Source of the DNA: Tagaea sp. CACIAM 22H2
GTDB taxonomy: Bacteria > Pseudomonadota > Alphaproteobacteria > CACIAM-22H2
NCBI GenBank assembly: GCA_014444615.1
Contig: PVXE01000005.1
Span: 62,001-126,000 of the forward strand
DNA: 64,000 bases
Reading direction: 5' to 3'
Positions 10,058 to 21,968 of the stretch are shown here, in pieces. The position numbers were made by a program, and so were the translations under genes. Each line of letters starts with the position of its first letter. Within the stretch, counting starts at the first letter, position 1. The notes under the pieces were generated by a model that did no database searches, had not been told where the DNA came from, and was given only the letters and a program-made list of their open reading frames with translations.

Positions 10058-10939
10058 TCACGTTGCGACATCGCCGCGCAACAGCGCGCGCAATGCCGGA
10101 TTCGGGAAGCGGCGCGGCGCGGTGACCGCGTAGAAATTCTCCGTCAGACCGGGCAAACGCACGGCCTCGACCAGCGCCCCCGACGCGAGTTCGTCCTTGA
10201 CCGCGATCGGCGGCAAGACGGCGACCCCCACACCTTCGCGCGCGAGCAAACGCATCATCGCCATATCCTCGACCTCCGCCGCGACGCGCGGCACGACACC
10301 CAGGCGATCGGCCAGCGCATCGAACGCGGCGCGCACGCCGCTATCCACCGTGGGCAGAATGATCGGCTCGCGCGCCAGCAGCGCCGCCGCCGTCCGCACG
10401 CCGCGCACGCGCTTGCGCGTTCCCACCAACGCGACACGCTGATGCGCCAGCCGATGCGTGACCAGCCGCGCCGGATTGTCGCGCCCGGGCGGATGATTGA
10501 GCAGAACGACGTCGAGGTTGAGGGCGGCGAGTTCGCCAAGCAGTTCCGCTGCCCCGCCCGAGCGCAGCACGATCCGAACATCGCCGCGCGTCAGCGCCGG
10601 GCGCAGAAACCCGAGCTGGAAATTTCGCGACAACGTCGCCAGCGCCCCGACGCGCAATTCGGCCCGCGCGGCACCCGCCCCCGCCAATGCGGCCGCGACA
10701 TCTTCCCCCGCCGCGAAGATCGCGTCGGCGCCGTCCAACGCGATCCGGCCGGCCTCGGTCAAGCGAAGTGTGCGGCCCTTGCGTTCGAACAATTCGTGGC
10801 CGAAGCGCGCCTCCAGCGCGCGGATCTGCACCGACAGCGCGGACTGGGAAAGATTGAGCTTCGCCGCCGCGCGCGTGAGGTTGCCGTCATGCGCAACGGC
10901 GCGGAAATACATCAGATGCCTGAAATTGATCGCCGCCAT
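10058..10939 (-). CDS. LysR-family transcriptional regulator
   Basis: This 293-residue protein has an N-terminal winged HTH (residues 4-62; RHLMYFRAVAHDGNLTRAA, then LNLSQSALSVQIRALE) and a periplasmic-binding-like effector domain. It is divergent from the SbtA-like permease gene at 11036, the classic arrangement for a LysR regulator and its target. An inverted repeat immediately upstream (10941-10959) is the likely autoregulatory site. If the neighbour is a bicarbonate transporter, this could be a CbbR/CmpR-like regulator, but the sequence alone does not establish that. Confidence 0.9.
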   Translation of the reverse strand: MAAINFRHLMYFRAVAHDGNLTRAAAKLNLSQSALSVQIRALEARFGHELFERKGRTLRLTEAGRIALDGADAIFAAGEDVAAALAGAGAARAELRVGALATLSRNFQLGFLRPALTRGDVRIVLRSGGAAELLGELAALNLDVVLLNHPPGRDNPARLVTHRLAHQRVALVGTRKRVRGVRTAAALLAREPIILPTVDSGVRAAFDALADRLGVVPRVAAEVEDMAMMRLLAREGVGVAVLPPIAVKDELASGALVEAVRLPGLTENFYAVTAPRRFPNPALRALLRGDVAT

Positions 10940-12024: not shown

Positions 12025-13008
12025 TCAGCCGCGCCGGACGGCGCTGATCCGTTTATGCATATACTCGCCTGCGAGGATCGGCGCATGACGCGGATTTTCT
12101 CCTAGCGACACCGTGCCGGGCAATGCCGCGACGGGCGCGTCGAAATTCGGATGGCAGAAATAGCCGAGCGACAGCCGCGCGCGCTTCGCCGCGTCGCCCG
12201 TCGGGTTCTGCACGCGATGGACGGTGCTGACCCAGCGGTCGTTCGTCCATTGCTGCATCAGATCGCCGATATTGATGACATAGGCATCCGCCGGCGGATC
12301 GACGGGCACGAACGCGCCATCGGGCGTTTGCACTTCCAAACCCATGCCGCCTTCTTCCGGCGGCAGCAGCACGGTCAAGCTGCCGAAATCCGAATGCGCG
12401 CCGGCGCGGAGTTGGCCTTCGACCGGCGGCTTGTCCAACGCGGGATAATGCAGCGCGTGGAACGCGGCGAAGTGGTTGTCGATCTTGTCGTTGAAGAAAC
12501 CGATCGGCAGGTTCAACGCGGCGGCGAAGCAGCGCATGATCTCGCCGGATAACCGCTCCATCTCGCGGAAATACGCGGTGAAGACGAGCTTCAATCCCTC
12601 GGGCTTCGCGGGCCAAATATTCGGTTTGTAGAACGGCGCGGCATTCACGAACTGCGCGTATTCGATGCCCGTGACTTCGGGGCGGCCGAAGCTGAGCAGC
12701 GTGCGGAAATCGGGGGGTGTTTCCACGCCGCGCGAGCGCGCCAGCGTGTTGGTCTCGGGCGGGGTATAGCCGCGCAGCATCGTGCCCTTGGGCGGCCGCA
12801 GCTTTTCCTTCTCCGCTTCCGGCAGCGCGAAGAATTCCCATGACAGGCGGCGCACTTCGGCGATCAGATCGGCCGGCACGCCATGGCCGCGAATGACCAG
12901 AAAGCCGATCTTACGGCAGGCTTCGTCGATCGTGCGGCCCAACGCGGCGATCGCAACTGCATCGCCCGAGCGGATCGGCGAGATGTCGACGACAGGGACG
13001 GCGCTCAT
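12025..13008 (-). CDS. 2-oxoglutarate/Fe(II)-dependent dioxygenase (isopenicillin N synthase family)
   Basis: This 327-residue DIOX_N/2OG-FeII_Oxy protein has an N-terminal PVVDIS strand and GFLVIRGHGVP. The Fe(II) facial triad is His205 and Asp207 (GAHSDFGSLTVL) plus His264 (STVHRV), with the 2-oxoglutarate clamp Arg278-Leu-Ser280. The start overlaps the stop of the upstream ring-opening amidohydrolase by 4 nt, so the two form an operon. Members of this family include fungal thymine 7-hydroxylase and xanthine dioxygenase. Hydroxylation of a pyrimidine- or purine-like ring before or after ring opening is a reasonable guess from context. Substrate is unknown. Confidence 0.87.
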   Translation of the reverse strand: MSAVPVVDISPIRSGDAVAIAALGRTIDEACRKIGFLVIRGHGVPADLIAEVRRLSWEFFALPEAEKEKLRPPKGTMLRGYTPPETNTLARSRGVETPPDFRTLLSFGRPEVTGIEYAQFVNAAPFYKPNIWPAKPEGLKLVFTAYFREMERLSGEIMRCFAAALNLPIGFFNDKIDNHFAAFHALHYPALDKPPVEGQLRAGAHSDFGSLTVLLPPEEGGMGLEVQTPDGAFVPVDPPADAYVINIGDLMQQWTNDRWVSTVHRVQNPTGDAAKRARLSLGYFCHPNFDAPVAALPGTVSLGENPRHAPILAGEYMHKRISAVRRG

Positions 13009-14027
13009 GCTTTGCTTCCTTCCGCTTTCACTTGCGCCACGAACGAAGCGAATCCGCCATCGTCCGGCCCCTGGGCTTCGGCCCCGCCCGAGACGAGCAC
13101 GGCGCCGTGGCCGATCGTCGAGCCGATCATCGCGCCATAGGCCGCGCGCGCGTGGCGATGCATGGCGATATCGTTGTCGAGATTCATCGCGTGCGGCATG
13201 CCCCGGATGGTGCCGTTCGCGGGCGCGTCGCCCTTGGAAATTGCGGCGATCAAACGCTTCGACTGATCCGGCGGCAGTTGCGGCGACGCCGCGAAGCCGA
13301 ACTTCGCCAAAGCCGCCGCGACCGACGGTGAGTCGAACGGATCGGCGAGCACGGCGTGGGAAACCGCATAGGCGGGATCGCCGCCCGCCCCGTTCGCCAG
13401 CACGAAAATCTGCTGGCCGGGCCCGTCATGGCGCGCGACGACGAAGGCGCGGCTTGCGAATGTCGCATCCTTCCCGTCCAGCACTTGCGCGACACCGAGG
13501 GCTGCGTGCTTGCGCACGGCGGGATCGGCGGCCGGGTCTTCGAAATTCGAGGGTGCCCGCACGATCACCAGCCCGACATCTTCCGCACGCCAATTCGATG
13601 CCGCCATCAGATCGGCGAGCTGGCGCGCGGTCGCCTCGCGATGCTTGGCCGTGCCGTGATCGGTGGCGGCGATCTCGATGCGCGACACACCCGCAAGCAA
13701 GCCGCGTTCGCCTGACGCTTTGCTTTTTGCCCAGACGACAAGATGGGGCGACACCGGCCCTTCCGATCCGCCGGAGACGAGGATCGGCACTTGTTCGGCG
13801 ATCGCTTGCTCGTTCACTCCCAAACGCGTGGCGAGCATCGTGCGCAACAAAAGGTCGATCCATGGCTTGGTGAAGTCATTGCGCAGACCGTTGCCGCGCG
13901 TTTTACACCACAGCCCGACGATGTCGGCGGGATCGACCGTTCCGCCATCCAGAATTTCGGCGAAGCCCGCGAGATCGTCGGGGGCACGCATGGGCAGGCG
14001 AATCGGGCGTATCGCGGTCGTTTTCAT
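13005..14027 (-). CDS. Ring-opening amidohydrolase (cyanuric acid hydrolase/barbiturase family)
   Basis: This 340-residue enzyme of the AtzD/barbiturase family opens cyanuric acid or barbituric acid rings. Family members have three related domains, each supplying a Ser-Lys pair. Visible here are Lys42 in WCKTRGNG, Ser85 in LVSGGSEGPVSPH, the DNDIAMHRHARAAYGAMIGS segment and a last serine in LVSGGAEAQGP. The ATG at 14027 is preferred; a GTG at 14036 is possible. It leads an operon with the 2OG dioxygenase and is divergent from the GntR/FCD gene, with an operator-like palindrome between them. Which ring it opens is not evident. Confidence 0.85.
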   Translation of the reverse strand: MKTTAIRPIRLPMRAPDDLAGFAEILDGGTVDPADIVGLWCKTRGNGLRNDFTKPWIDLLLRTMLATRLGVNEQAIAEQVPILVSGGSEGPVSPHLVVWAKSKASGERGLLAGVSRIEIAATDHGTAKHREATARQLADLMAASNWRAEDVGLVIVRAPSNFEDPAADPAVRKHAALGVAQVLDGKDATFASRAFVVARHDGPGQQIFVLANGAGGDPAYAVSHAVLADPFDSPSVAAALAKFGFAASPQLPPDQSKRLIAAISKGDAPANGTIRGMPHAMNLDNDIAMHRHARAAYGAMIGSTIGHGAVLVSGGAEAQGPDDGGFASFVAQVKAEGSKA

Positions 14028-14054
14028 ACTTCCCACTTTGCTGACGAATTAATC

Positions 14055-14068
14055 ATTTTGTCGACAAT
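14055..14068. promoter_or_regulatory. Shared palindromic operator, copy 1 (probable GntR/FCD site)
   Basis: ATTTTGTCGACAAT contains the perfect palindrome TTGTCGACAA (14058-14067). It lies between the divergent starts of the ring-opening amidohydrolase and the gntR gene. The identical 14-mer recurs at 16190-16203 in the other divergent promoter region of this island. Confidence 0.72.
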
Positions 14069-14124
14069 AAAGCCCAAAGATTGACCATTAGGGTAAATTG
14101 CCGTGAATGTGCTAAAGGGCGGAT

Positions 14125-14823
14125 ATGCCTGCCGACACGCTCGCCCCGCGCCCGCTGCAAGCCGCCCTGGTCTCCGCCAAGATCGTCGATGCGGTTTTGG
14201 AGGCGATCGCGCATGGGCGTTTGACCGCCGGCACGCGCCTGCGCGAAGAGGAAATCGCCGGGATTTTCGGCGCGAGCCGGGCGGCCGTGCGCGAGGCGTT
14301 GAAAGCGCTGGCCGAGCGCGGCGTGGCGGTGTTGCAGCCCAATCGTGGTGCCCGCGTCGCGTCGCCCACCGAGGACGAAGTGACGCAAACCTACGCCGCG
14401 CGCGCGCTGATCGAGGGGGCGATGGCGGCCGATCTCGCCCAGCACATCACCGCCGCTGATATCCGCAAACTGCGCGAACATATTGGCGCGCAGCGGCGCA
14501 CCAACGACAGCGGCGAGCGGCGCGAACATCTGCGCCTGATGGGCGATTTCCACACGCTGCTCGCCACGCTGCACGGCAATCCGGTCGTCACCGAAACGCT
14601 GGAGCGTCTGGTCGCGCGCACCAGCTTCATGACCGCGCTGTTCCCGCCGCAAACCCAGATCTGCGCGATCGACGATCACGTCGCGATGGTCGATGCACTC
14701 GCCAAGGGCGACGGCGCGCTGGCCCAGCGTTTGGCGTCCAAGCACATGATGGACAATCGGGCACGCCTGCGCGCGGGCGCTGCGGCGCCGACGGCCGATC
14801 TGCGCGCGGCGCTGCTGCCTTAG
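14125..14823 (+). CDS. GntR-family transcriptional regulator, FCD subfamily
   Basis: This 232-residue protein has a winged HTH at about residues 20-85 (TRLREEEIAGIFGASRAAVR, then the ALAERGVAVLQPNRGARVA wing). An all-helical FCD ligand domain follows at about 90-220, with metal-site histidines in DFHTLL, DDHVAMVDAL and ASKHMMDN. It is the obvious candidate to bind the TTGTCGACAA palindromes at 14058 and 16193 and so control both halves of the catabolic island. Its stop and that of the convergent amidohydrolase gene are 1 nt apart. Confidence 0.9.
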   Translation: MPADTLAPRPLQAALVSAKIVDAVLEAIAHGRLTAGTRLREEEIAGIFGASRAAVREALKALAERGVAVLQPNRGARVASPTEDEVTQTYAARALIEGAMAADLAQHITAADIRKLREHIGAQRRTNDSGERREHLRLMGDFHTLLATLHGNPVVTETLERLVARTSFMTALFPPQTQICAIDDHVAMVDALAKGDGALAQRLASKHMMDNRARLRAGAAAPTADLRAALLP

Positions 14824-14824
14824 T

Positions 14825-16156
14825 TCACACATCTTCCGCGGCCCGCGCCCACAAGCCTTCGGCGGCCTTTTGCGCGGCCGCGCGCACGGCGTTCGTACCG
14901 GCAAACAACGCTTCCCCGTCGCGCACCACTTGGCGGCCGGCGACCCACACATGCTGTACGTCGCGCCCGTTGGCGTCGTGGACCAGCGTGCCCAGCGGGT
15001 CGAGCAGCGGTGTGAGATGCGCGCGGCGAAAATCCCACGCGACGATATCGGCGGCATAGCCCGGCGCCAAACGGCCGAGCCACGCATCCACACCCAGCGC
15101 CCTGGCGCCGTTGCTGGTCGCCATTTCGAAGGCATCTTCGGGCTGCCAATCTTCGGCGACACGGCCCAAATGCACGCGCGCATTCGCCAAGCCCCAGCGC
15201 ATCTGCTCGGCCATATCCTGCGTCAGATTATCAGTGCCCAGCGCGATATTGGCGCCGGCCGCGCGCAAATTCGGCGTATGCGCGACCGCGCCCCCCGTGG
15301 CGTTGCCCTTGGGCACATGCGCGACCGTGGCACCCGCCGCGCCGAAACGCTTCACGTCGTCTGCGGTCATGTGAATGCAATGCGCGGCGATCAAATCTTC
15401 GTTGAGCAAGCCCACACGCTCCAGCAATTGCGTGGGCGTGCAGCCATCGCGTTTCTGGATCTGCGCGTTTTCGAGCTTTGACTGCGACAGATGCGTCGAG
15501 ACCTTCAAACCGTTGGCGCGCGCGAACTCACCCGCCCGGCGCAATAGATCGGCCGAGCACGTATCGGGCGCATGCGGAATCGCGATGGTACGCGCACGGC
15601 CGCCATAGGCGCCGTTGAAGTCGCGGGTGAGTTTTTCGAGCTCGCCCAAGCGCAGACGCCCGATCTCGTCCTTGTGTTCCCAATCGGAGAGATGGACGCG
15701 CGAGAAATCGACGTCGTGCAAACGTCCGCACGCCCAAACGCGCATGCCGAGATCGCACATCGCCGGCAGCGTCAAATCGCCGTGTACGTAGCTGTCGACC
15801 ATCGCGGTCGATCCGGCGAGCAGCGCTTCCAACGCGCCCAGCCGCGCCAAGGCGACGGATTCCTCGGGCCCGATCTCGTGCCCATGCGGCACGCCGCGCG
15901 TATACGCGGGCGCAAAGCCCATATCGATGGCAATGCCGCGCATCAGGCTGAGGATCGCGTGCGTATGGATATTGACGAAGCCCGGCGTCAGAACGCGGCC
16001 CGCCAGGCTTTCGATCCGCCCGTCGAAGGCCGGCAGCGTCGCCATCGGCCCCAGATCGACGATTTTCTCGCCGCTTAACGCCAGCCAGCCGCGCGCAATG
16101 GGGGCCGCCCCCGGGCTTACAATTGTCGCATCGGTCAAGATCAGGTCGGGTTTCAC
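14825..16156 (-). CDS. Metal-dependent amidohydrolase (TrzA/AtzA/SsnA-type deaminase or chlorohydrolase family)
   Basis: This 443-residue subtype-III amidohydrolase has metal ligands His64 and His66 (NIHTHAIL), His222 (STHLSQS), His259/His262 (AAHCIHMT) and Asp309 (LGTDNLTQDM). The Glu usually found in the fourth-strand HxxE motif of deaminases is Gln here (HLSQ), so chemistry may differ. The GTG at 16156 is chosen as start because GGAGAG lies 5-6 nt upstream and the beta-sandwich domain begins there. It is divergent from the ABC transporter operon with the shared palindrome between. Relatives deaminate or dechlorinate s-triazines and purine or pyrimidine bases. Confidence 0.82.
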   Translation of the reverse strand: MKPDLILTDATIVSPGAAPIARGWLALSGEKIVDLGPMATLPAFDGRIESLAGRVLTPGFVNIHTHAILSLMRGIAIDMGFAPAYTRGVPHGHEIGPEESVALARLGALEALLAGSTAMVDSYVHGDLTLPAMCDLGMRVWACGRLHDVDFSRVHLSDWEHKDEIGRLRLGELEKLTRDFNGAYGGRARTIAIPHAPDTCSADLLRRAGEFARANGLKVSTHLSQSKLENAQIQKRDGCTPTQLLERVGLLNEDLIAAHCIHMTADDVKRFGAAGATVAHVPKGNATGGAVAHTPNLRAAGANIALGTDNLTQDMAEQMRWGLANARVHLGRVAEDWQPEDAFEMATSNGARALGVDAWLGRLAPGYAADIVAWDFRRAHLTPLLDPLGTLVHDANGRDVQHVWVAGRQVVRDGEALFAGTNAVRAAAQKAAEGLWARAAEDV

Positions 16157-16189
16157 CGCGTCTCTCCGCTTGGCATACCGCGTGCAAGG

Positions 16190-16203
16190 ATTTTGTCGAC
16201 AAT
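16190..16203. promoter_or_regulatory. Shared palindromic operator, copy 2 (probable GntR/FCD site)
   Basis: ATTTTGTCGACAAT is identical to the sequence at 14055-14068. A further imperfect copy of one arm (TTTTGTCGGC on the minus strand, 16215-16224) and the repeat ATGCA-GTT-TGCAT (16202-16214) lie beside it. It sits between the amidohydrolase start (16156) and the ABC binding-protein start (16270), so one regulator could control both. Confidence 0.72.
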
Positions 16204-16269
16204 GCAGTTTGCATGCCGACAAAACGCTTGGCGGCATCCTTTCGAGCGACCCCCAACCGGGAGATCCCG

Positions 16270-17361
16270 ATGACCCTGTCAATGAATCGCCGTTCCCTTC
16301 TCGCCGCGATGAGTGCCGCGGCCGCCACCTCCGCCGGGCCGGTCTTCGGTCAGGCGCGCGGCGAACAATTGCTCGTCGTCATGTGGGGCGCGCAATGGAT
16401 CGAAGTGTGCCGCCCGATCGGCGAGGAATGGATGCGCGCCACCGGCGACCGCATTCAATGGGAACTCCATGCCGGCGGCGCGATGGGCATCGTTGGCCGC
16501 ATGCGCCCGCTGTTCCCGCGCATTCAGCAGAATCTCGTCGCGGCATGGGACCCGGTTTTCGATGCGATGATCGAAGCCGATTGGCTCGAACCCGTCAGCG
16601 AAACCGAAATGCCCGCGCTGAAGGAAATCCCGGAGATCTTCTTCAAGAAGGACAAGCAGGGCCGCAAGGTCACGGTGCCGCTGTCCACCGCCGGCGCGTT
16701 CTGGGGCTATCGCACCGATCTGGTCGACAAGCCGATCGAGAGCATCGAGCAGCTGCTGGAGCCGCGCTTCAAAGGCAAGCTGTGCGTGCCGGTGCCGGTC
16801 AACCTGTCGGGCCTGTTGATGGTCAGCCTCGCCATTCAGCGCGGCGGCAACGAGCGCAATATCGAGCCCGGCTGGCAATTCCTGAAGGAACTCGCCCAGC
16901 GCGGCAATATCGGCCGCGTCGTCGCCAACAACAGCGAAATGATCAACGCGATGAGCCAGGGCGATCTGTCGGTCGCGTTCTGGAACACCGGCGGCTGGCA
17001 GGCGGTGCGCGAGCGCTTCCCCTCGCGCCTGCTCACGCGCCTCAACGACAACAAGGGCTTCCTGTTCAACGAAGGCTATGTCGTGATGAAGGGCGACAAC
17101 CCGGCGAAGATCGCCGCGGCCAAGCGCTTCGCCAACCATTTCGCCACCGCCGAAATCAACACGCGCTACAACATGCCGCTCGGCTCGGGCCCGACCAACA
17201 TCAACGCCAAGCCCGCCGACGCGATCAAGGATATTTTCTACAACGCCGACGAACTCGCGAAATACGCCTATATCCCCGACTACAGCTACATGGCCTCCCA
17301 GGTCGACGCATGGACGCGCCGCTGGGAAACCGAGATCACGCCGCTCGTCCGCCAAGGATGA
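16270..17361 (+). CDS. Spermidine/putrescine-type ABC transporter substrate-binding protein (PotD-like)
   Basis: This 363-residue periplasmic protein begins [19 protein letters not shown], a twin-arginine-like signal with cleavage near FGQA. The mature part has the class-II binding-protein pattern: LLVVMWGAQWIE, then VVANNSEMINAMSQGDLSVA, a segment seen in PotD/AfuA-type proteins. GGGAGA precedes the ATG at good spacing. It overlaps the next permease gene by 4 nt. Located in the island with the amidohydrolase and ring-opening enzyme, it probably imports the N-heterocyclic or amide substrate that these degrade rather than a polyamine. Confidence 0.87.
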   Translation: MTLSMNRRSLLAAMSAAAATSAGPVFGQARGEQLLVVMWGAQWIEVCRPIGEEWMRATGDRIQWELHAGGAMGIVGRMRPLFPRIQQNLVAAWDPVFDAMIEADWLEPVSETEMPALKEIPEIFFKKDKQGRKVTVPLSTAGAFWGYRTDLVDKPIESIEQLLEPRFKGKLCVPVPVNLSGLLMVSLAIQRGGNERNIEPGWQFLKELAQRGNIGRVVANNSEMINAMSQGDLSVAFWNTGGWQAVRERFPSRLLTRLNDNKGFLFNEGYVVMKGDNPAKIAAAKRFANHFATAEINTRYNMPLGSGPTNINAKPADAIKDIFYNADELAKYAYIPDYSYMASQVDAWTRRWETEITPLVRQG

Positions 17362-18218
17362 AGCGTCTACCGATCGCGGTTTGGCTGATCGTTCCCGGTG
17401 CCGCGGCGCTGGTCTTCCTGATGGGAGGACCCGTCGCGGTACTGACGATCGATTCCTTGCGTCCGTATATTCCCGGCAGCATCCGGGCGGGCGAAGGCTA
17501 CACCTTCGCGAATTATCTCGAACTCGCGAAGCCCGCCTATTTCAACTACGCCTACGAGACTTTCCGTATCGGCCTGATCGTATCCACGTTCTCGGTCGCG
17601 ATGGGGGCGCCGCTCGCCTATGTCGCCGTGCGCAGCAAGCGCGCGGTGGTGCGTAAAGGTCTGCTCACGCTGCTCGTCGGGCTGCTGGTCATGAGCTTGA
17701 TCGCGCGCCTCTACGCGATCGAAATGACCTGGGGCAGTCACGGACCGCTCGCCTTCATCGGTGCCTTCGTCAGCGGCCTCGCCCCGCGCAGCCCGCGCTA
17801 TGCCGAAGTTCTGGTTTCGATCGGCCTGATGCATTTCACCATTCCGATCGTGGCGCTGATGCTGGTGGGCGCGTTTCGCGCGCTCTCGCCGCGCTTGGAG
17901 GAAGCCGCCGCGTCGCTCGGCGCCACGCGCAGCGAAGCGATCCTGACCGTCGTTCTGCCGCTCGCGGCTCCCGCGATGGTGTCGGCCTATCTCGTCTCGC
18001 TCGCCATGTGCATCAGCAATTTCGTGGCGCCCTTGCTGCTCGGGCGCGGCGTCGTCGTTTTCACGACGAACCTGATGTACACGCGCTTCACCGATATCGG
18101 AAACTACCAAGCGGGTGCGGCGATCGGCGTGTTCATGCTGATCGCCAGCTTCGCGGTCGTCTATGGCCTCGCCACCATCGCGAAAAAACTGCTGCCCAGC
18201 GTGGTGCCGACGCGATGA
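17358..18218 (+). CDS. PotB-like ABC transporter permease
   Basis: This 286-residue inner-membrane permease has six predicted spans and the EAA loop LEEAAASLGATRSEAILTVV before the last helices. It overlaps both neighbours by 4 nt (ATGA), which indicates tight coupling with the binding protein and the second permease. It belongs to the BinPT permease group used by polyamine, thiamine and iron transporters. Substrate follows from the binding protein and is unknown. Confidence 0.9.
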   Translation: MKRLPIAVWLIVPGAAALVFLMGGPVAVLTIDSLRPYIPGSIRAGEGYTFANYLELAKPAYFNYAYETFRIGLIVSTFSVAMGAPLAYVAVRSKRAVVRKGLLTLLVGLLVMSLIARLYAIEMTWGSHGPLAFIGAFVSGLAPRSPRYAEVLVSIGLMHFTIPIVALMLVGAFRALSPRLEEAAASLGATRSEAILTVVLPLAAPAMVSAYLVSLAMCISNFVAPLLLGRGVVVFTTNLMYTRFTDIGNYQAGAAIGVFMLIASFAVVYGLATIAKKLLPSVVPTR

Positions 18219-19033
18219 AACCGCTCGATCTGCCTTTGCGCATCGTCGCGCTTGCCGTCGTCGCCACGACGGTCGCGTTCCTGCTCGCCCCTTTGCTGGT
18301 TGCGTGCCTGCTGTCCTTCGACAATCGCAGCTTCCTGGGCCCCTTCCCGCCCAAGGATTTTTCGCTGCGCTGGTACCGCTCCTTCCTCGACAACCCGGCC
18401 TATCTCGACGGGTTCTGGATGAGCGTTCATGTCGCGGTGATCGCGGGTGCCATCTCCACCGCCATCGGCACGGCGACCGCGCTGGCCCTGGCCGATCCGC
18501 GCTTGCCCGGCCGCGACGCGATCGAGGCCGTATTCCTGTCGCCCAAATTCGTGCCGACGGTGGTGATCGGCTTCTCGCTGCTGGTCTTCACCGCCTTCAT
18601 CGGCATCTACGATCCCTTCGTGCGGCTGGTGATGGGCCATACGATCATCACCATCCCGTTCACGATCCGCGCGGTTTCGGCCAGCCTCGTGGCGCTCAAG
18701 CGCAGCCATATCGAAGCGGCGATGTCGCTGGGTGCATCCGAACCGCGCGCGTTGTGGGACGTCGCCGTGCCCGCCGCGCGCAGCGGCATCGTCGCGGGCG
18801 GCGCCATCGCCTTCGTGCTGTCGTTCGACGAGGTCGCGGTCAGCCTGTTCCTGTCGGATGCATTCACGCAAACGCTGCCGATAGCACTCGTCGCTGAGAT
18901 GCGCGCGAATTTGAATTTGACCATCGCGGCGGTGTCGACCGTCTTTCTCGCCGCGACCTTGGCGTTGCTTTTCGTGCTCGACCGCACGCTCGGTATCGAA
19001 CGGCTCGCCGGCGACGTGGGGGCGCGCGGATGA
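18215..19033 (+). CDS. PotC-like ABC transporter permease
   Basis: This 272-residue permease with six spans begins after a short basic N-terminus and has the PotC hallmarks LLAPLLVACLLSFDNRSF and FFAL-type extracytoplasmic segment FSLRWYRSFLDNPAY. The ATPase-docking loop reads IEAAMSLGASEPRALWDVAV. It partners with the PotB-like subunit and overlaps the ATPase gene by 4 nt. Confidence 0.9.
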   Translation: MKPLDLPLRIVALAVVATTVAFLLAPLLVACLLSFDNRSFLGPFPPKDFSLRWYRSFLDNPAYLDGFWMSVHVAVIAGAISTAIGTATALALADPRLPGRDAIEAVFLSPKFVPTVVIGFSLLVFTAFIGIYDPFVRLVMGHTIITIPFTIRAVSASLVALKRSHIEAAMSLGASEPRALWDVAVPAARSGIVAGGAIAFVLSFDEVAVSLFLSDAFTQTLPIALVAEMRANLNLTIAAVSTVFLAATLALLFVLDRTLGIERLAGDVGARG

Positions 19034-20079
19034 AACTCGAAGTTCAAAATCTCGTCCGCCGTTTCGGCAACGCGCTGGCGCTCGACGGCGCCAGCCTCGA
19101 CGCGAACTCCGGCGAAATCGTCGCTTTGCTCGGCCCCTCGGGCTGCGGCAAAACCACGACCTTGCGCATCGTCGCCGGGTTCGAGAGTTCGGATTCCGGC
19201 CATGTCATGCTCGGCGGCGAGGAGATCGGCCGCCTGCCGCCGCACAAGCGCGATATCGGTCTGGTCTTCCAGGATTACGCGCTGTTCCCGCATATGACCG
19301 TCGCCGACAACGTCGCTTACGGCCTCAAACGGCGCGGTGTCGCAAAAGCCGAACGCGCGCAGACCGTCGCGCGCGTGCTGGAAACGGTGCGCCTCTCCGG
19401 CCTCGAAGCGCGCCGCCCGGCGCAGCTTTCCGGCGGCCAGCAGCAACGCGTGGCGCTTGCGCGGGCTCTCGCCATCCGCCCGCGTCTCCTGCTGCTCGAC
19501 GAACCGCTCTCCAATCTCGACGCCAAACTGCGCGGCGTGTTGCAGACGGAACTGCGTGAAATCCTGACCCGCGTGGGCACGACGACATTGATCGTCACCC
19601 ACGACCAGGAAGAAGCGATGGCGCTGGCCGACCGTATCGCGGTGATGCGCAACGGCCGCACGCTGCAACTGGGCACGCCGCGCCAAGTCTACGAGAAACC
19701 CGCCACGCGGTTCGTCGCCGAATTCCTCGGCAAATCGCTCTGGCTCGAAGGCAAGCTCGACGGCGCCCGCTTCGTCACCGATACGGGCTTCAGCTTGCGC
19801 TGCGCGCCCGCCTATCTCTCCGCCGCGCGCTACGGCTTGATGCTGCGCCCCGAAGCGTTGAGCTTGAAGTCCCGCCTGGGCGACGGCGACGGCTTCCCGG
19901 CGACGGTCAAATCGGTGCGCTATCGCGGCCATGCCGAGCTTCTGGAACTGGATATCGCCGGGCGCTTGACCGTATCGATCGAAGTGCCGCACGGTGCGCC
20001 GATCCCCGAACCGGGCACGCGCGTCGCGATCGGTTTCGATCCGGCGCGCGCTTTGCCCGTTCCCGAAGATACGGACTGA
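19030..20079 (+). CDS. PotA-like ABC transporter ATP-binding protein
   Basis: This 349-residue ATPase has Walker A GPSGCGKTTT near residue 40, Q-loop VFQDYALFPHMTVADNV, signature LSGGQQQRVALARAL, Walker B LLLLDEPLSNLD and switch His in VTHDQEEAM. A C-terminal TOBE regulatory domain (about residues 265-345) is typical of PotA/UgpC-type ATPases. It powers the permeases encoded just upstream. The gene is followed after 3 nt by the racemase-like gene. Confidence 0.93.
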   Translation: MKLEVQNLVRRFGNALALDGASLDANSGEIVALLGPSGCGKTTTLRIVAGFESSDSGHVMLGGEEIGRLPPHKRDIGLVFQDYALFPHMTVADNVAYGLKRRGVAKAERAQTVARVLETVRLSGLEARRPAQLSGGQQQRVALARALAIRPRLLLLDEPLSNLDAKLRGVLQTELREILTRVGTTTLIVTHDQEEAMALADRIAVMRNGRTLQLGTPRQVYEKPATRFVAEFLGKSLWLEGKLDGARFVTDTGFSLRCAPAYLSAARYGLMLRPEALSLKSRLGDGDGFPATVKSVRYRGHAELLELDIAGRLTVSIEVPHGAPIPEPGTRVAIGFDPARALPVPEDTD

Positions 20080-20082
20080 CCC

Positions 20083-20829
20083 TTGCGCATCCTGTTGCTG
20101 AACCCGAACACGTCGCAATCGATCACGGATATCCTGGCGACGGCAGCTATCCCGGCGGCGGCACAGGGCACCGAGATCGTGCCGATCACCGCCCCGCGCG
20201 GCGTGCCTTACATCTCCAGCCGGGCGGAAGCGCAGATCGGCGGCGCCATCGCGCTCGAAATGCTGGCCGAGCGTGCCGGCACCTACGACGCCGCGATCAT
20301 CGCCGCCTTCGGCGATCCCGGCCTGTTCGCCGCGCGCGAGTTGTTCGATGTGCCGGTCATCGGCATGTCCGAAGCGGCGATGCTGACCGCCTGCATGCTC
20401 GGCAAGCGCTTCGGCATCGTCACTTTCGCCGCAGCGATGGAGGCGTGGTATCGCGACTGCGTCGAACAACACGGTCTCAGCGGCCGTTGCGCGGGCATTC
20501 GCTGTCTCGAGGGCGGGTTCAATTCCATCGACGACGTGCAGGACGAGAAGGAGTCCGCGTTGATCGCGCTTGCGAACAAATCGGTCTCGCTCGACGATGC
20601 CGAAGTCATCATTCTGGCGGGCGCGCCACTCTCGGGCCTCGCCGCCAAGGTCGCGGATCGCATCCCCGTTCCGCTGGTCGATCAGGCCGCCGCCGCCGTC
20701 AAACAAGCCGAAGCGCTCGTCACGCTCAAGCCGCGCAAAGCGGCCGAAGGCGGCTACCGCCGCCCCGGCGCAAAGCCAAGCACGGGCCTTCCCCCCGCCC
20801 TCGCCGCGCGTATCGCGCACAAGGATTGA
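20083..20829 (+). CDS. Asp/Glu/hydantoin racemase-fold protein lacking both catalytic cysteines
   Basis: This 248-residue protein starts at a TTG codon with RILLLNPNTSQSITDIL, the usual N-terminus of hydantoin and allantoin racemases. The family racemises substrates with two cysteines in ACFxDPG and LGCAGM contexts, about 105 residues apart. Here the equivalent positions are Ala75 (IIAAFGDPGL) and Gly180 (ILAGAPL), exactly 105 apart, so the two-base racemase mechanism cannot operate. The fold, including PVIGMSEAA and VDQAAAAVKQAE, is otherwise intact. It may have a different catalytic or binding role in the island's pathway. It is the last gene of the transporter operon. Confidence 0.85.
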   Translation: MRILLLNPNTSQSITDILATAAIPAAAQGTEIVPITAPRGVPYISSRAEAQIGGAIALEMLAERAGTYDAAIIAAFGDPGLFAARELFDVPVIGMSEAAMLTACMLGKRFGIVTFAAAMEAWYRDCVEQHGLSGRCAGIRCLEGGFNSIDDVQDEKESALIALANKSVSLDDAEVIILAGAPLSGLAAKVADRIPVPLVDQAAAAVKQAEALVTLKPRKAAEGGYRRPGAKPSTGLPPALAARIAHKD

Positions 20830-20867
20830 CCGATCGCGGGAGGCGGACAATGCCCCGCGCTGTCGGT
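20829..20867. terminator. Possible bidirectional stem-loop between convergent genes
   Basis: ACCGA/TCGGT (20829-20833, 20863-20867) and CGCGGG/CCCGCG (20835-20840, 20854-20859) arms form an imperfect stem spanning the 37-bp gap between the racemase-like gene and the lacI-type gene. There is no T-tract, so termination is uncertain. Confidence 0.35.
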
Positions 20868-21865
20868 TAGGCGCCGCGCCCGACGAATTCGTAGGCAAGC
20901 AGTTCGGCGCGCGGCGATTCACCCCGCCAAAGCTCGCCAAGAACGCCGACGATCGCCTCGCCGAAGCCGCGATAAGGAACGCGTACCGACGCCAACCAAG
21001 GCGCGACCCAATCGTTCAGCGGATTGTCGTCGAATCCGATCAGGCGCACATCGCGCGGTACCGACAGGTCCGCTTCCCGCAGTCGGCGTTGAACGCCGTA
21101 GGCGATCAGGTCGGACGCGCAGAAAATGCCTTTCGGCGCGCGCCCCGACAGCAGCGCCGATGCCCCTTCGTAACCGATCTCGAGATGGTCGACGCCCGGC
21201 GCTGTCGCCATATCCTCCGGCGCCAGTTCCCGGCCGAGCTTCGCGAGTTCGCGTTTGAACCCGGCAACACGATCGGCCGTGGCGGAGGACGATAGCGGGC
21301 CATGAACCAGCGCCAGCCTTCCCTTTGGGACGGCCTGCGCCAAAGCGCGCGCCACTTCTCGGCCCGCCGCGCGGTTGTCGATGCCTACAAACGCCGCCTT
21401 ACCCGGTATCGGACAACGGCGATTGACGAAGACTGTCGGGATTGGGCCGGTCAGCGCCGCGCGCAAACCGTCGCTCGCGACGGCCGCGAGCAAGACATAG
21501 GCCCGCACGGCTTGCGCGCGCATCTCGAGAAGATACTCGTCCTGCAAATCGGCGCGGTCGTGCGTGTCGCAAAGCACCATGGCAAGACCGGCATCGCGCA
21601 ACGCCGTTTCGATCGACGCGGCAACCGCCGCCATCGTCGGGTTCGCAAGATTTGCCGCGAACACCGCGACCAGCCGGCTGTGCCCTTTACGCAAAGCCTG
21701 GCCCGCGCCCGTGGGCCGGTAGCCGGTTTCGGCGATAGCTTTGCGCACGCGCTCGACCGTCTCGGGCGACGCCTTTTTCGCGATGCCGTTGACGATCCGC
21801 GACACAGTCGCGATCGACACGCCCGCGCGCTTGGCGACGTCGCCGATGGAGACGTTACGCGTCAT
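20867..21865 (-). CDS. LacI-family transcriptional repressor
   Basis: This 332-residue regulator has an N-terminal HTH (DVAKRAGVSIATVSRIVNG) with a hinge helix near residues 45-58 (GYRPTGAGQALRKG) and a periplasmic-binding-like sugar-sensing domain. The start at 21865 is preferred because GGGAGAA precedes it and the HTH begins there. It is divergent from a sugar ABC transporter operon. A near-perfect LacI-type operator lies at 21910-21927 over the operon's transcription start. The effector is presumably the imported glycoside or uronide; that is inferred. Confidence 0.92.
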   Translation of the reverse strand: MTRNVSIGDVAKRAGVSIATVSRIVNGIAKKASPETVERVRKAIAETGYRPTGAGQALRKGHSRLVAVFAANLANPTMAAVAASIETALRDAGLAMVLCDTHDRADLQDEYLLEMRAQAVRAYVLLAAVASDGLRAALTGPIPTVFVNRRCPIPGKAAFVGIDNRAAGREVARALAQAVPKGRLALVHGPLSSSATADRVAGFKRELAKLGRELAPEDMATAPGVDHLEIGYEGASALLSGRAPKGIFCASDLIAYGVQRRLREADLSVPRDVRLIGFDDNPLNDWVAPWLASVRVPYRGFGEAIVGVLGELWRGESPRAELLAYEFVGRGA

Positions 21866-21877
21866 TTTTTCTCCCGC

Positions 21878-21927
21878 TTGAGAATCCGAGCGCCCGGACG
21901 TATACTGCATGGGTAAACGTTTTCCCA
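21878..21927 (+). promoter_or_regulatory. Promoter and LacI-type operator of the sugar/GH2 operon
   Basis: TTGAGA (21878-21883), 17 bp, then TATACT (21901-21906) makes a good sigma-70 promoter. The palindrome TGGGTAAACGTTTTCCCA (21910-21927) follows, centred on CG with one mismatched pair, and matches the AAACGTTT core of LacI-family operators. It covers the expected start point, so repressor binding would block initiation. Confidence 0.82.
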
Positions 21928-21968
21928 TTTCGATCTAATTTCGGGAAACGGACAAAAGGGAGGAACCC

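Follow-up and report, generated by a model that had tools for sequence, protein, structure and literature searches.

The window analysed here is a 64,000-nucleotide stretch of DNA from Tagaea sp. CACIAM 22H2 (GenBank assembly GCA_014444615.1, contig PVXE01000005.1, positions 62,001 to 126,000). It contains a predicted catabolic island in which two divergent intergenic gaps carry the same 14-bp repeat, which raises the question of which regulator recognizes these sites and which genes it controls. Taken as a whole, the best explanation, which we judge highly probable from the comparison of sequences, is that the palindromes serve as operators of an autoregulated FCD-type GntR repressor encoded at 14125-14823, with neighbouring dimers placed 20 bp apart. 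The arrangement is a standard bacterial control layout and comprises the following features:

12025..13008, minus strand: 2-oxoglutarate/Fe(II) oxygenase, second gene of the leftward operon, overlapping the end of the ring-opener gene
13005..14027, minus strand: AtzD/TrzD/barbiturase-fold amidohydrolase ('ring-opener'), first gene of the leftward operon (Pfam PF09663, 2.2e-58)
14038..14047: degenerate box of gap 1, TTGCTGACGA, a satellite at 20 bp from the main one that immediately precedes the ring-opener start
14058..14067: putative main operator box of gap 1, TTGTCGACAA, a perfect 10-bp palindrome within the repeat at 14055-14068
14098..14107: weak, tentative box of gap 1, TTGCCGTGAA, lying 40 bp from the main one toward the GntR gene
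14125..14823, plus strand: GntR-family regulator with FCD domain, 232 aa (Pfam GntR PF00392, 6.2e-14; FCD PF07729, 3.4e-22)
14825..16156, minus strand: TRZ/ATZ-type amidohydrolase with GTG start, left of gap 2
16193..16202: putative main operator box of gap 2, TTGTCGACAA, within the repeat at 16190-16203
16213..16222: degenerate box of gap 2, ATGCCGACAA, a satellite at 20 bp from the main one; it includes most of an arm at 16215-16224
16270..20829, plus strand: transporter operon encoding a substrate-binding protein, two permeases, an ATPase and an Asp/Glu/hydantoin racemase

The ring-opener start was placed at ATG 14027, because the corresponding gene in a relative of the same genus (G014) has no upstream start codon; GTG 14036 is also possible.

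The sequence-only reading had described ATTTTGTCGACAAT as a 14-bp palindrome present at 14055-14068 and 16190-16203. Both positions are correct and the copies are identical over 14 bp, but perfect palindromy is confined to the central 10 bp, TTGTCGACAA, and the flanking bases form an asymmetric identical repeat. The arm at 16215-16224 is indeed related, as had been proposed, but it represents half of the degenerate full box ATGCCGACAA at 16213-16222. The two gaps bearing ATTTTGTCGACAAT are also the only divergent gaps of the island, which extends from 12025 to 20829; the next ones (LysR/SbtA near 11.0 kb and LacI/SBP near 21.95 kb) fall outside it. When up to two mismatches were allowed, the window contained two matches to ATTTTGTCGACAAT, compared with 0.26 expected, and no other copy. 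A genome-wide scan, which the same reading had suggested, revealed that the 14-mer is not frequent: exactly two copies are present in 4.39 Mb (144 contigs), both in the two gaps. The 10-mer TTGTCGACAA occurs four times in the genome, and the two extra copies sit within a DUF3422 gene and an epimerase gene. The longest word common to gap 1 and gap 2 (88 and 113 bp) has 14 bases, a length that was reached in none of 20,000 shuffles.

Several candidates for regulon members elsewhere were rejected. The remaining TTGTYRACAA copies in the window's genome (G000) and its two closest island-bearing relatives (G014 and G015) are located within long open frames and lack satellites, as does a site in G011 near a distant ring-opener homologue (L105:9159). 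A 14-mer with a single mismatch (C48) lies just within a coding sequence.

The protein encoded at 14125-14823 has the domain composition of the FadR subfamily, i.e., an N-terminal GntR winged helix-turn-helix and a C-terminal FCD effector domain, and its residues H143, H185 and H207 are invariant, also in the paralogue described below. It is not one of the named FCD regulators (PhnR, NanR, LldR, GlcC etc.) as defined by NCBIfam equivalog models, the best score being 99 bits for PhnR_burk against a cut-off of 271.5. FadR-subfamily operators have the form TKGT/ACMA, with a 2-nt spacer in HpxS, HypR and UxuR, and a survey of these sites also described divergons to which the gene of the regulator itself belongs (Suvorova et al. 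2015, PMC4494728). A TKGT-N2/3-ACMA palindrome is located beside the regulator gene here, as TTGT-CG-ACAA in gap 1, and is kept in other genera. In addition, E. coli NanR bound to (GGTATA)3 demonstrates that dimers of GntR proteins can associate cooperatively along a series of repeated boxes (PMC8012715). Based on the form of the box, the known divergons and this cooperative assembly, the sites are read as probable operators of the encoded GntR protein.

According to this model, one GntR dimer would occupy each TTGTCGACAA, and the weaker box 20 bp away, at a distance of approximately two helical turns and on the same face of the DNA, would hold a neighbouring dimer, which makes cooperative binding probable. 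Binding in gap 1 would repress the ring-opener/oxygenase operon and the GntR gene itself, while binding in gap 2 would repress the amidohydrolase gene and the transporter-racemase operon. Repression would be released by a metabolite of the pathway, probably a small acidic compound.

GntR might bind the same boxes as an activator or as a dual regulator instead of a simple repressor, although this appears unlikely. The sign of regulation is not readable from sequence and no clear core promoter was found; as no sigma-70-type promoter was recognised in gap 1 or gap 2, an overlap between box and promoter cannot be shown, and terminators were likewise not found in either gap. The main box centres are, however, only ~36-41 bp away from the start codons of the leftward genes, where a repressor would typically bind. 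In gap 1, the centre is ~36 bp from the ring-opener ATG (14027) and 62 bp from the GntR start, and in gap 2 the distances are ~41 bp to the amidohydrolase GTG and 72 bp to the ATG of the substrate-binding protein. Divergent, autoregulated FadR-type divergons are furthermore the described norm (PMC4494728), which also argues for repression by GntR.

The GntR interpretation is well supported for gap 1. The whole island is present in G014 with 91-98% protein identity, and a part of it is found on a 6.4-kb contig of G015; the gap 1 box reads TTGTCGACAA in G015 and TTGTCGGCAA in G014. Each gap is ~90% conserved over its full length within the genus, and G014 and G015 alone are therefore weak evidence that does not single out the box. 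Two Acetobacteraceae MAGs (L047 and L050) have the same gene order from the oxygenase to the ATPase, and their GntR proteins are 61% and 67% identical to that of the window. Their gap 1 is otherwise diverged, but TTGTTGACAA is present, and each of these genomes (5.2 and 4.0 Mb) contains exactly one TTGTYRACAA, which is located in the GntR/ring-opener gap. The ring-opener/oxygenase pair is also present at three other loci (L046, L048 and L049); neither a GntR homologue nor TTGTYRACAA was found in the DNA fetched for them.

In more distant relatives of GntR (L053-L082), a recognisable upstream box is mostly missing, and they add nothing to this comparison. L085 was not counted, because it has no ring-opener within its 12.5 kb (L112); upstream of its GntR gene (L085:1200-1500), whose product is 44% identical to that of the window, TTGTGTACAA is found together with weaker boxes in steps of 19 bp. 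Another GntR gene, which is more distant, is preceded by the FCD-type boxes TTGTCGACAG and TCGTATACAA (L072:1340-1380); these are 23 bp apart and thus have a different pitch.

For gap 2, the GntR interpretation is reasonable within the genus. The sequence-only reading had assigned control of both gaps to the one GntR/FCD protein. As a prediction, this assignment is supported for gap 1, where the box type, its distant conservation as a genome-unique site and the absence of the box where GntR is absent agree, and for gap 2 it is supported within the genus only. Among genus relatives, gap 2 was readable outside the window only in G014, where the main box is identical (TTGTCGACAA) and the satellite ATGCCGACAA is also kept. 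No GntR box was found in gap 2 of L047 and L050, and co-regulation of both gaps is therefore supported only in the window's genus. This finding would suit a situation in which gap 1 contains the only true operator and the gap 2 copy is a recent or incidental duplicate, with the transporter and the amidohydrolase controlled otherwise. We consider this rather improbable, because the gap 2 14-mer is identical and has its own satellite at 20 bp, both of which are kept in G014, and because the chance of a common 14-base word is below 1 in 20,000. The short gap between the amidohydrolase and the substrate-binding protein genes in L047 and L050 contains CATGCATG-type palindromes (GGCCATGCATGGCC in L047) without a GntR box, which might be the site of another regulator.

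The use of the window's palindromes by a different regulator, i.e., the LysR protein (10058-10939), the LacI protein (20867-21928) or a global factor, is very unlikely. LysR and LacI are both encoded just beyond the island, and LacI operators can have a CG centre. However, wherever a copy of the island was read across, GntR was the sole regulator found within it, the DNA fetched around the GntR-bearing islands yielded neither a LacI nor a LysR homologue, and a global factor would need a more frequent motif.

Wherever a gap has a main box, a degenerate one is also present, and their centres are exactly 20 bp apart, the distance at which the GntR model places the neighbouring dimer. These satellites read TTGCGCGCAG in L047, and TCGCCGACAA and TGTTCGACAG in L050. 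The spacing was analysed by two tests in which the offset was left free. When all offsets up to 60 bp were scored, 20 bp was best on both sides of the main box, and the symmetric 20-bp score was not attained by any of 5000 dinucleotide-preserving shuffles. In the second test, which used an 8-position consensus and included the paralogous island, the score was 43 at 20 bp and 25 at the next offset. A value of 43 was not reached in 20,000 mononucleotide shuffles, and for the three gaps of the window's genome alone, 5 of 20,000 were as high as observed; these shuffle figures are somewhat generous, because the 20-bp spacing had been seen by eye before testing. A chance repeat is practically negligible as an explanation. 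A 10-bp palindrome of this kind does turn up a few times per genome anyway, but the exact 14-mer in both divergent gaps, the cross-family conservation and the spacing statistics strongly disfavour it.

A second, paralogous island is present in G000, G014 and G015, with a ring-opener that is ~47% identical and a GntR protein that is 43-46% identical; for the paralogous GntR gene, the sequence was read in G000 and G014. In the window's own genome, this island is located on contig C6 (L038:6048-9380), and its ring-opener, amidohydrolase and GntR are 40-47% identical. The paralogous GntR/ring-opener gap contains (C/T)TGTATACAT and TTGTGTGCA(A/T), 20 bp apart, in all three genomes. Compared with the island in the window, the main box sequence has changed and the 20-bp pitch is kept. 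Possibly, although we would put this at slightly less than an even chance, a clade of FCD-type GntR proteins reads a fixed lattice in which a strong palindrome is accompanied by weak boxes at intervals of exactly 20 bp. After duplication, the regulators would then have changed the box from a CG centre to a TA/GT centre and kept the lattice, implying that the dimer-dimer contact is conserved independently of DNA specificity.

The 13005-14027 protein has the Toblerone fold (model pLDDT 90.8; TM 0.90 to 6dhj). In cyanuric acid hydrolases and barbiturases, the Ser226/Lys156 dyad was described as the only absolutely conserved one (PMC4051656). In the alignment of this protein and its clade (L006, L018 and L046-L050), Lys is replaced by Arg and Ser by Gly or Ala, whereas domains A and C retain their dyads. 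Ala at the Ser position is also found in some other distant homologues that retain Lys, and thus only the Lys-to-Arg exchange is special to the clade in the sample compared. These replacements suggest that the chemistry differs or that another pair of residues is catalytic, and because the Ser-Lys dyad is replaced, the name 'ring-opening operon' is provisional.

The predicted regulon is small and specific, consisting of the four transcription units of a heterocycle-type catabolic island. GntR is probably released by an intermediate of the pathway, and this effector could thus provide a route to the island's substrate. In addition, a 20-bp lattice that is kept across paralogues with different boxes would offer a simple test of GntR dimer cooperation.

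Control of an AtzD-fold amidohydrolase operon from a divergent gap is also known for atzDEF, but its regulator AtzR is a LysR-type activator, whereas a GntR/FCD protein is encoded here. None of the papers listed by the literature searches described this operator, nor was a GntR paper with 'center-to-center' spacing found, and the exact 20-bp satellite spacing is apparently an unreported detail. As in E. coli NanR (PMC8012715), GntR/FCD dimers would be placed side by side on repeated boxes; NanR differs by its close direct repeats and a 32-residue N-terminal extension, while the boxes here are palindromes 20 bp apart and the regulator has no such long extension. The FadR/FCD divergons (PMC4494728) are alike in the combination of a winged helix-turn-helix and FCD regulator, a divergent gap, a TKGT-N2-ACMA palindrome and probable autoregulation. 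The same survey reported paired sites at constant distance as well as additional half-boxes at 7-12 nt from the centre of the site, and its background was taken from positions -20/-21, whereas near-full degenerate boxes are found here at exactly 20 bp. In view of the divergons, constant-distance pairs and half-boxes that were already reported, the present arrangement is a variation on known practice.
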